A DNA stretch of 64,000 nucleotides. Origin: Luteibacter yeojuensis (GTDB taxonomy: Bacteria > Pseudomonadota > Gammaproteobacteria > Xanthomonadales > Rhodanobacteraceae). A program made the position numbers and the translations under genes. The notes under the pieces were generated by a model. That model ran no database searches and was not told the origin of the DNA. It saw only the letters and a program-made list of their open reading frames with translations. Below are positions 42,688 through 46,288 of this stretch, piece after piece. The stretch spans positions 1 through 64,000 of the forward strand of contig NZ_JZRB01000028.1 in the NCBI RefSeq assembly GCF_000964085.1, read 5' to 3'. Within the stretch, counting starts at the first letter, position 1. Every line of letters begins with the position of its first letter.

Positions 42688-42848
42688 GTTGGCCGGCGGT
42701 TCCGGTGGAGGCGGGCAAAGCCTAGCACGGCTCGCGCGGCAAACCCTTGCGTGGGGCCGCCTTCACGCTTGCGTTGTGGATGCGGGGCAAACGCACCACA
42801 ATGCAGGGTAGTTCGCCAGCACTACGATCCAACAGCCGCGAGATCAGC

Positions 42849-44174
42849 ATGCCGTTCCGTCCCACCTCCCTGCTCGCCTGCGCGCTCGCCGCCGCCCTCG
42901 CCACGCCACTCGCCCTTGCCGCCCCACCGCCCAAGCCGCCGGTCGTGCACGTGGACCCGGAAGCAGCGAAAATTCCCGCCGACCGCGTCAGGAAGACGAT
43001 CGACGACTACAAGGCCTGGCTGGATAGCGCCGAGGCACGCGACGCGGCGCCCGCCATCGTCACCGCGGTGATCGTCGACGACAAGGTCGTCTATGAACGC
43101 GCCATCGGCTATGCCAACGCGAAGACGAAAGAACCCGCCACGCCGGAAACCGTCTTCCGCCTGGCCTCGCTGTCCAAGGCGTTCGCCACCGGCGTCACCG
43201 CCGTGCTGGTCAAGGATGGTTTCCTCAGCTGGGATACCAAGCTCGCCGACACCCTGCCCTACTTCAAGCTGAAGGATGCCCAGGCCGGTGAGCAGGCCAC
43301 CGTGCGCGACATCCTCGGCCAGCGCCTGGGCCTGCCGCGCAACACGTACGATGCCATGCTCGAGGCCGATGCGCCCTACGAGGAACTGGTCCGCAAGCTC
43401 GACGAGGTGGATCTCTCCTGCAAGGTGGGCGCGTGCTACGGCTACCAGAACGTCGCCTTCAGCATGATCGGCGATGTCATCTACGCCACCACGGGCGATT
43501 ACTTCTTCCGCCAGGTGGAGCGCCGCATCTTCGCGCCGCTGGGCATGACCACCGCCAGCTACGGCCGCGATGCGCTCGAGGCCAGCAAGAGCTGGGCGCG
43601 CCCCCACCGCGGCGCACCGCACAACTGGATCCCCTACGAGCCCAACGACGCCTACTACCGCGTCGCGCCGGCGGCCGGCGTCAACGCCAGCCTCCGCGAC
43701 ATGGAGCAATGGCTCATGGCGCAGATGGGTGGCCGCCCCGACGTGCTGCCCACGCCGCTGCTCGACGTGCTGCACGCACCGGGCGTGCCCACGCCGGGCG
43801 AGGAACACTCGCAGCCGTGGCGCCGCGCGCGCGTCACCGACGCGCACTACGCCCTGGGTTGGCGCCTGTTCCGTTACGCGAACGAAGATCTCGTCTACCA
43901 CGCGGGCGCCGTGTCCGGTTACCGCACCATGATCGGCTTCTTCCCGAAATACCACGCGGGCGTGGTCACCATGTGGAATGCCGCGGCGCCCATCCCGGCC
44001 GGCCTCATGCCCATGGTGTTCGACGACCTGCTGGGCCTGCCGCATGTCGACTGGGCCGGGGTGGAGGGCAGCGTCCACGCGGCGCCCGTCGCCAAGGCAC
44101 CGGCCAAATCAAAGACCAAGGCGGCACCGGCCAAGAAGAAGGCCACGACCACCAAGTCGAAGAAGAAAAAATAA
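42849..44174 (+). CDS. Serine beta-lactamase-like hydrolase with Lys-rich tail
   Basis: A 441-aa exported class-C-like serine hydrolase. A signal peptide covers residues 1-25. The SxxK motif is SLSK within 107-110 (FRLASLSKAF), the YxN motif is in CYGYQNVAFSM, and HAG in VYHAGAVSGYR replaces the KTG box. It may be an esterase, peptidase or D-alanyl carboxypeptidase; it need not hydrolyse beta-lactams. The last 37 residues form a Lys/Ala-rich tail (AKSKTKAAPAKKKATTTKSK), unusual for a periplasmic enzyme. The ATG at 42849 is chosen over 42747. Confidence 0.85.
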   Translation: MPFRPTSLLACALAAALATPLALAAPPPKPPVVHVDPEAAKIPADRVRKTIDDYKAWLDSAEARDAAPAIVTAVIVDDKVVYERAIGYANAKTKEPATPETVFRLASLSKAFATGVTAVLVKDGFLSWDTKLADTLPYFKLKDAQAGEQATVRDILGQRLGLPRNTYDAMLEADAPYEELVRKLDEVDLSCKVGACYGYQNVAFSMIGDVIYATTGDYFFRQVERRIFAPLGMTTASYGRDALEASKSWARPHRGAPHNWIPYEPNDAYYRVAPAAGVNASLRDMEQWLMAQMGGRPDVLPTPLLDVLHAPGVPTPGEEHSQPWRRARVTDAHYALGWRLFRYANEDLVYHAGAVSGYRTMIGFFPKYHAGVVTMWNAAAPIPAGLMPMVFDDLLGLPHVDWAGVEGSVHAAPVAKAPAKSKTKAAPAKKKATTTKSKKKK

Positions 44175-45324: not shown

Positions 45325-45474
45325 GGCGGCGGTACTGCACTCCGGAATGAACGCGCGCCCCCTGATGGCTTGACGCGAAGGACCCCCCGTCCCACGCAGC
45401 GCGTGGCTGAAAGGTACCCGTAATGGGGGCGTGAATCCAGCCTGCCGGCCTAGGAGGAATTCTTAAATGAATAA

Positions 45475-45536
45475 CCCCGGCCAGGCCGGGGTCAAGGTTT
45501 TCGAAGTGGCTCCCCGCGCTGGGCACCGCGGGGAGC
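45475..45536 (-). terminator. Hairpins at the end of the metJ-H1 gene
   Basis: Two strong hairpins lie downstream of the reverse-strand gene: GCTCCCCGCG/CGCGGGGAGC (45509-45536) and CCCCGGCC/GGCCGGGG (45475-45491), the latter followed on the reverse strand by TTATTCATTT. The second is the more terminator-like. Confidence 0.55.
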
Positions 45537-45578: not shown

Positions 45579-46232
45579 TTAGGCCTTGGGGGCCTTGGGG
45601 GCACGCGGGGCGCGCGGAGCCTTGGGGGCCTTGGCGGCCTTGGTCGCACGGACGACCTTGGCAGCGGCGACCTTCTTCGAGGCGGCCTTGCGCGGAGCGG
45701 CCTTGCGGGCGGTCTTCTTGGCAACCGACTTCTTGGCAGCGGCCTTCTTCGGCGCAGCCTTGCGGACGGCCTTCTTTACAGCCTTCTTGGCGGCGACCTT
45801 GCGGGTCGAAGCCTTCTTCACCGCCGACTTGCGGGCGGTCTTCTTCACTGCAGCCTTGCGGGCAGTCTTCTTGACCGCGGCCTTGCGGGCGGTCTTCTTC
45901 GCCGGGGCCTTGCGGGCGGCGGTGCGCTTCACGGTGGACTTCTTGGTCGCCTTCTTGGCGGCCGACTTCTTGGCAGTGGCTTTCTTGGCAGTGGCCATGG
46001 TTCGTCTCAGCTCCTCATCAGTTGGCAGTGGTTGCCCAGTAAAAGCGTGGAGGAACGCTTCAACCAGCAGATCGCTGTTCGTCGCGTGCCTTAAATTGTT
46101 CACCTGTCGGCGGGTGCGTTCATCGGAAAGCAGGCGGAGCACATGCAGTGGAATCGATACCGTGATCTTGCGTACCGCGCCTGCTTTCGAACCGTGCTCC
46201 ACATACGGACGGATGAAGTTGTCTAGTTCCAT
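45579..46232 (-). CDS. MetJ-like ribbon-helix-helix domain fused to histone H1-like tail
   Basis: A 217-aa two-part protein. Residues 1-78 are strikingly close to the methionine repressor Met[21 protein letters not shown] holds the DNA-contacting beta-strand with the Lys and Thr of KIT conserved, followed by [16 protein letters not shown] and [13 protein letters not shown]. The last MetJ helix is missing. Residues 79-217 are a Lys/Ala/Arg tail with near-repeats of KKTARKAAV, like bacterial histone H1-type (AlgP, HctB) proteins. The ATG at 46232 follows GGGGAA. An internal ATG at 45998 ([11 protein letters not shown]) could yield the tail alone. Whether it senses S-adenosylmethionine, represses met genes or organises the nucleoid is unknown. 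Confidence 0.88.
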
Positions 46233-46259: not shown

Positions 46260-46288
46260 AAGCTATTCCTGAACAAATCCGCTGTCAA
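46260..46288 (-). promoter_or_regulatory. Sigma-70-type promoter of the metJ-H1 gene
   Basis: On the reverse strand a perfect -35 TTGACA (46288-46283), a 17-base spacer and a -10 TAGCTT (46265-46260) precede the ATG by about 28 bases. The rest of 46289-46611 (about 320 bases) shows no gene or clear RNA. Confidence 0.6.

Follow-up and report, generated by a model that had tools for sequence, protein, structure and literature searches.

A MetJ-type repressor with a histone H1-like tail in Rhodanobacteraceae: a near-invariant junction element and a proposed internal start

Introduction

Folded domains that carry histone H1-like tails are a known kind of protein, since AlgP and HupB provide precedents. 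Mycobacterial HupB joins a DNA-binding domain to an H1-like tail, but this domain is HU and not ribbon-helix-helix, and the protein is not known as a methionine regulator. AlgP and PhaF of Pseudomonas consist of a folded part and a disordered, Lys/Ala-rich C-terminal tail that has been likened to histone H1, and peptides of these tails bind DNA, as stated in the available text of the source (PMC9239181). As for MetJ, the accessible part of a genome survey places it in six other gammaproteobacterial groups and in 0 of 4 Xanthomonadales genomes (PMC4239095), and X. campestris is given as lacking metJ in the available part of another paper (PMC6230763). In Rhodanobacter R12, a MetJ named as a putative repressor goes up with nitrate while four methionine enzymes fall, and the available sections of that paper do not mention a tail (PMC12146267). 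No description of a tailed MetJ, or of a fixed internal start at such a junction, was found in the literature searched; relative to that literature, a metabolite-sensing repressor with an H1-like tail and a fixed junction start is new.

The window analysed here is a stretch of 64,000 nucleotides from Luteibacter yeojuensis (contig NZ_JZRB01000028.1, positions 1 to 64,000), in which one gene, called metJ-H1 below, unites a MetJ core with such a tail. Its features are collected in Table 1.

Table 1. Coordinates of the metJ-H1 gene and its associated features in the window.
Feature	Position	Strand	Basis or remark
metJ-H1 open reading frame	45579..46232	(-)	217 aa + stop
MetJ core, residues 1-77, ribbon-helix-helix, without helix C	46002..46232	(-)	Pfam, NCBIfam, PDB alignment
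Hyperconserved junction element, 51 nt, GCT TTT ACT GGG CAA CCA CTG CCA ACT GAT GAG GAG CTG AGA CGA ACC ATG	45996..46046	(-)	alignment
GAGGAG (contains AGGAG), Shine-Dalgarno-like	46011..46016	(-)	12 nt before internal ATG
Internal ATG (Met79), proposed second start codon	45996..45998	(-)	alignment
H1-like Lys/Ala/Arg tail, 139 aa, proposed also as free protein	45582..45998	(-)	composition
TTGACA -35 box	46283..46288	(-)	perfect match, by eye; paired with TAGCTT at 46260-46265
Terminator-like hairpin, 3' of metJ-H1	45472..45494	(-)	1 site vs 1.9 expected in shuffles

Gene, promoter and neighbours

The metJ-H1 gene, which is the sole MetJ gene in the L. yeojuensis genome, runs in a single frame from an ATG at 46232-46230 to a stop codon at 45581-45579. 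The perfect TTGACA box that the first-pass annotation had pointed out is present upstream, separated by 17 nt (by eye) from TAGCTT; since this -10 hexamer fits TATAAT at 3 of 6 positions only, a generic promoter scan lists nothing there. Across the family, 113 of 114 tailed loci (a set that retains duplicates) carry the pattern TTGACA-N15-19-TAnnnT at about -55 to -61, and the tabulated start of the sole exception, L040, is misplaced. The neighbourhood is conserved too, with gcvH and gcvT each present at 74 of 75 loci and a downstream TonB-like gene at 62 of 70 (duplicates again retained, gene names by eye), whereas the neighbour of metJ in E. coli is metB. Just 3' of metJ-H1, a sub-threshold match to the Rfam anti-hemB RNA (45467-45534, minus strand; 29.5 bits against a gathering score of 49.5) overlaps the terminator-like hairpin.

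The MetJ core and the basic tail

Residues 5-88 of the product match positions 5-88 of the 97 in the Pfam MetJ domain PF01340 with 127.8 bits (cut-off 25, E 1.6e-37), and NCBIfam NF003622 is matched with 133.2 bits (cut-off 110). A run of 17 residues is identical to E. coli MetJ (PDB 1cma), with which the alignment is good to about residue 77. The KIT strand has K22 and T24 in all 23 aligned sequences; this K-x-T strand is the one with which MetJ contacts DNA. With both profiles above their cut-offs and the tail in frame, the fusion of a MetJ domain to a basic tail, as proposed by the first-pass annotation, is borne out, and so is the absence of the last MetJ helix: the Pfam match reaches position 88 of 97, is reliable to about residue 77, and a basic tail stands in place of helix C. 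Because this helix is missing, the product is called a MetJ variant, though its score and operators are those of MetJ. The same annotation had tied the loss of helix C to the fusion, but the tail-less relatives from two sister families (14 read of 19 found), which are about 79-95 aa long and whose profile match stops at position 78-83 of 97, lack it too, so that the loss probably predates the tail. In helix A, the stretch ERTRRQVNN is replaced by DLRTHRQVNN, DLRTYRQVNN or DLRTERQVKN at many loci among L067 and L071-L090 (Rhodanobacter and some Dyella), which alters the residue equivalent to E. coli Arg42.

Counted from Met79, the tail comprises 43 Lys, 12 Arg and 47 Ala among its 139 residues and neither Asp nor Glu, giving a calculated pI of about 12, so that the H1-like composition noted at first reading stands. 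The cut-offs of H1-like profiles are not reached (HC2 PF07382, 21.1 bits against 40; NF038053, 23.9 against 80). Among complete family sequences the tail varies from 34 to 309 residues with a median of 96, and 96 of 99 contain no acidic residue at all; 69 of 100 tailed sequences share a C-terminal motif resembling KVVKATK. In addition, the same genome holds two more Lys/Ala-rich H1-like proteins (L208, 922-1827, and L209, 1483-2547, both on the minus strand), and a Lys/Ala tail (APVAKAPAKSKTKAAPAKKKATTTKSKKKK) likewise closes a serine-hydrolase-like protein (by eye) at 42747-44174 on the plus strand of the window; tails of this type are found repeatedly in the genome.

Distribution and intactness of the fusion

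MetJ matches occur in 193 of 197 Rhodanobacteraceae genomes and in 26/26 genera of this family, among them Luteibacter, Dyella, Frateuria, Rhodanobacter, Dokdonella and Tahibacter. When genomes are sampled evenly over the class, 3 of 274 have a match, one of which is the window's own, and at the level of the order the number is 53 of 200, made up of 34 Rhodanobacteraceae and 19 genomes from two other families. That is to say, the taxonomic search shows the tailed MetJ to be near-universal in Rhodanobacteraceae and the relatives read from sister families to be tail-less. The first-pass annotation had allowed that the tail might already be described for all Xanthomonadales orthologues; it is indeed general within Rhodanobacteraceae, but no such description was found in the literature searched.

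It had also been considered that the tail might be a separate gene joined by a frameshift error in the assembly. This source of the fusion is rejected, since none of the 123 family loci fetched (best matches rather than a random draw, yielding 106 unique proteins) has a true stop before the tail, and each of the 8 loci with fewer than 35 residues past the MetJ core is truncated by the end of its contig. The set of 100 sequences used below consists of unique proteins with at least 35 residues past the core; it includes L042, which is cut by a contig end, and omits L040, whose core is partly diverged, and the E. coli-type L032 and L033. All its frames are open by its own inclusion rule, so the independent check is that of the 123 loci.

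MET boxes and the predicted regulon

Over 59 family genomes, 489 tandem MET boxes (RGACGTMTAKACGTCY, at most 1 mismatch) are counted, compared with 18 in the reversed control, and a site is present in 58 of the 59. A less strict scan of the L. yeojuensis genome yields 9 places, the control 3; at one of the 9, three MET boxes in a row lie beside a TTGACA between the divergent cysK and metX genes, both of which exceed their NCBIfam cut-offs. Elsewhere, MET boxes precede metX (G023), metB (G055), cysJ (G004) and aspartokinase genes (G023, G004), all assigned by profile, as well as metX of G026 and two further cysJ genes named by eye; cysG and cysB-like calls are by eye only. The target list is partial, since some sites lie inside open frames or beside genes that could not be placed. 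Putative TonB receptors also occur near MET boxes of the own genome, one (L140) under all cut-offs and one (L139) without a family match. Two family genomes, G015 and G052, have unusually many tandem sites (42 and 24), which suggests enlarged regulons or a repeat.

MET boxes are also found upstream of metJ-H1 itself, with at most 3 mismatches, at 99 of the 114 tailed loci (duplicates retained); the reversed pattern occurs at one of the 114. The 51 such MET-box sites with at most 1 mismatch all begin 167-189 bp before the start codon. None is found upstream of the gene in the window or in its four Luteibacter relatives L034-L037, so autoregulation seems to have been lost in Luteibacter. Given the invariant K22 and T24 and the canonical tandem MET boxes before methionine and sulfur genes, local repression of these genes has very probably been kept. 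The idea from the first-pass annotation that MetJ could have been turned into a global regulator is not clearly upheld, as the KIT strand and the MET boxes are retained; a link between methyl-donor status and chromatin is possible. A MetJ with a MET-box regulon is near-universal in one family of Xanthomonadales, the order to which the survey's four genomes without MetJ belong.

The junction element

The boundary between core and tail is occupied by an element that is near-fixed at the nucleotide level in the 100 unique tailed sequences, reading GCT TTT ACT GGG CAA CCA CTG CCA ACT GAY GAG GAG CTR AGA CGN up to the ATG. So sharply bounded and near-invariant an element of 51 nt is unusual within a coding region. 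Many of its codons are seldom used in these genomes (ACT 4%, CCA 6% and AGA 1% of the synonymous family), and AGA makes up 100% of the Arg codons at its position. Among 40 representatives differing by more than 12% in core DNA, the ratio of synonymous entropy to background is 0.35 for the 15 block codons against 1.07 for the 40 others (Mann-Whitney p 1.7e-6, a guide value since codons are non-independent), and majority codons of less than 15% background are found at 9 of the 15 block positions against 0 of 40 outside. Where the earlier reading saw a fusion, an H1-like composition and a lost last helix it was correct, but it overlooked this strongest feature, which ends in an internal ATG.

With at most 3 mismatches allowed, a 33-nt part of the block occurs in 190 of the 197 family genomes (163 of the 166 good ones) and in 25 of 26 genera, and in none of the reversed control rows. 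Of the 7 genomes without it, two, G006 and G111, do have MetJ; the other five lack a good MetJ match, four having none and one a match with E 8.6e-4. In an order-wide draw, all 25 family genomes have the block and none of the 126 others does; it is missing from the tail-less MetJs read, and the exact element is found in no viral contig. The G006 sequence (L134) is the only one of the 100 without the junction Met; its block is also missing, GTC GTG is read there, and a stop in the +1 frame is retained although the block is absent. In the whole set, this +1-frame stop (TGA/TAA at CTR-A) is present in 98 of 100 sequences and a -1-frame TGA in 89 of 100. The conservation extends back to about -48, beyond the need of a plain ribosome-binding site.

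Several other candidates for the junction were rejected. No Rfam family exceeds its gathering score, the best (anti-hemB) sitting 3' of the gene, and there is no significant stable hairpin (z 0.46). By eye, a short GGCA/TGCC hairpin is disrupted by CTA codons at some loci, a hammerhead-like CTGATGAG...CGAA is lost in lineages with GAC and CGC, an internal sigma-54 promoter has the wrong spacing, and the peptide of a +1 coding frame in the block would be altered by the third-position changes observed. No internal sigma-70 promoter is listed by the scan.

Signature of an internal start

The junction Met is present in 99 of the 100 unique sequences, the residue before it being T, D, I or missing, and GAGGAG and Met are both kept in 39 of the 40 representatives. 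The spacing from GAGGAG to ATG is 12 nt in 89 sequences and 9 nt in 10, a distance of 12 nt being longer than usual. In Tahibacter (L101, L010 and relatives) and Frateuria (L063, L131), the codon before the internal ATG is missing and AGGAG is 3 nt nearer, with the frame and the ATG kept. A Shine-Dalgarno-like motif precedes only 89 of 1444 control internal ATGs. Moreover, the mRNA at the junction ATG is less structured than its synonymous randomisations (mean z +2.8 for the 25 of 99 tested), while 150 control internal ATGs have a mean z of -0.43, two of them reaching at least 1.85 and none 2.5. The mean fold energy is -11.2 at the junction ATG and -12.5 at the metJ start, against -24.4 at control ATGs (n=300). 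The share of AAA among Lys codons is 28, 52 and 36% in the first three five-codon blocks after the ATG, falling to 17-19% in blocks four and five and to 6-9% after them.

A conserved ATG, a Shine-Dalgarno-like motif and open mRNA are thus found together at the junction, which is consistent with translation initiating there. The free-standing H1-like gene L208 begins MATSRKAAAKK after GAGGAG-N7-ATG, which suggests that the tail may derive from an H1-like gene whose start survived the fusion.

Possible products of the gene

The reading that we favour, and regard as probable while leaving considerable room for others, is that one gene gives two in-frame proteins, namely the MetJ repressor with its tail and the H1-like part as a free protein. 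What the computation establishes is the fusion with its distribution, the junction element with its start-site signature, and the MET boxes. We infer that the full-length product would bind SAM, the expected co-repressor, and act on methionine and sulfur genes as a MetJ-type repressor, while its disordered, strongly basic tail would add non-specific affinity for DNA. The second product would be the tail alone, initiated at the junction ATG within a dedicated translation-initiation region, and would presumably serve as a small H1-like DNA-coating protein. Its N-terminus would read MATAKK, and the calculated masses are about 14 kDa for this product and 23 kDa for the full-length one. Counted against two products are the conservation back to about -48, the long spacing of 12 nt between GAGGAG and ATG, and the near-fixed +1 stop at CTR-A, which a recoding model expects; in addition, the joint loss of block and ATG rests on one genome (L134), several MET-box sites lie within open frames or by unplaced genes, and Luteibacter has no self-upstream boxes.

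It is unlikely, yet the most serious of the rivals, that the full-length fusion alone is made, the tail making the repressor bind DNA more tightly and for longer, and the junction block causing a rare-codon pause, before the tail emerges, in which the interwoven MetJ dimer folds first. The frame kept across the family loci and the wealth of rare codons in the block (9/15 against 0/40) agree with this, but a pause requires rare codons, whatever their exact sequence, the Met stays constant next to a variable residue, and the AAA ramp and weak structure resemble a start. Another rival is that the block controls the mRNA, either as the target of an RNA or protein acting in trans or as a nut-like site for processing or antitermination, and that the ATG is incidental. 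This would leave the invariant ATG and the codons downstream of it unexplained; the idea draws on a conservation wider than a simple ribosome-binding site needs, but it has neither an Rfam family over the gathering score nor a significant fold on its side, and we hold it to be improbable. Programmed frameshifting in the block, yielding beside the fusion a MetJ without tail that resembles the naturally tail-less relatives, stays a weak rival because of the near-fixed +1 and -1 stops, to which the rare AGA at its position may be added; since there is no classical slippery site (by eye), the +1 stop persists in L134 although the block is gone, and the junction Met is unexplained, its probability is very low. 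Least credible of all is that the specific role of MetJ has been lost and the fusion is purely a nucleoid protein: the tail is very basic, and the survey, in its available text, gives no MetJ for its 4 Xanthomonadales genomes (PMC4239095), but the KIT strand is conserved and MET boxes stand before metX, metB, cysJ and metJ-H1 itself.

If, on the favoured reading, a free H1-like protein is made from the same gene as the tailed repressor, one gene unites a metabolite-sensing repressor and a chromatin-type protein. A further step, offered only tentatively and with less confidence than the two products themselves, is that a linker-histone-like protein lies nested in the frame of a SAM-sensing repressor, so that the methyl-donor level would set the amounts of both where MET boxes precede the gene, coupling methionine metabolism to the state of the nucleoid, and that the junction would represent a new kind of fixed internal initiation element. 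The near-invariant junction element is directly testable, and the hypothesis of a second product, though bold, is testable too.

Comparison with known systems

Compared with AlgP and PhaF, metJ-H1 differs in its N-terminal part, since theirs is not a metabolite-sensing repressor, and no internal start is described for them in the available text (PMC9239181). The free-standing H1-like gene L208 resembles the junction in the start described above, but it is a gene of its own with no MetJ ahead and a different C-terminal stretch. The short MetJs of the two sister families (L114-L127) share with metJ-H1 a MetJ core without helix C, but they have neither the tail nor the junction element. Finally, metJ-H1 is like E. 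coli MetJ in its domain score over the cut-off, in the identical 17-residue run and in the MET-box-type sites near methionine genes, and unlike it in that the last helix is absent and a basic tail of 139 residues, with a junction element and an internal ATG, is present.
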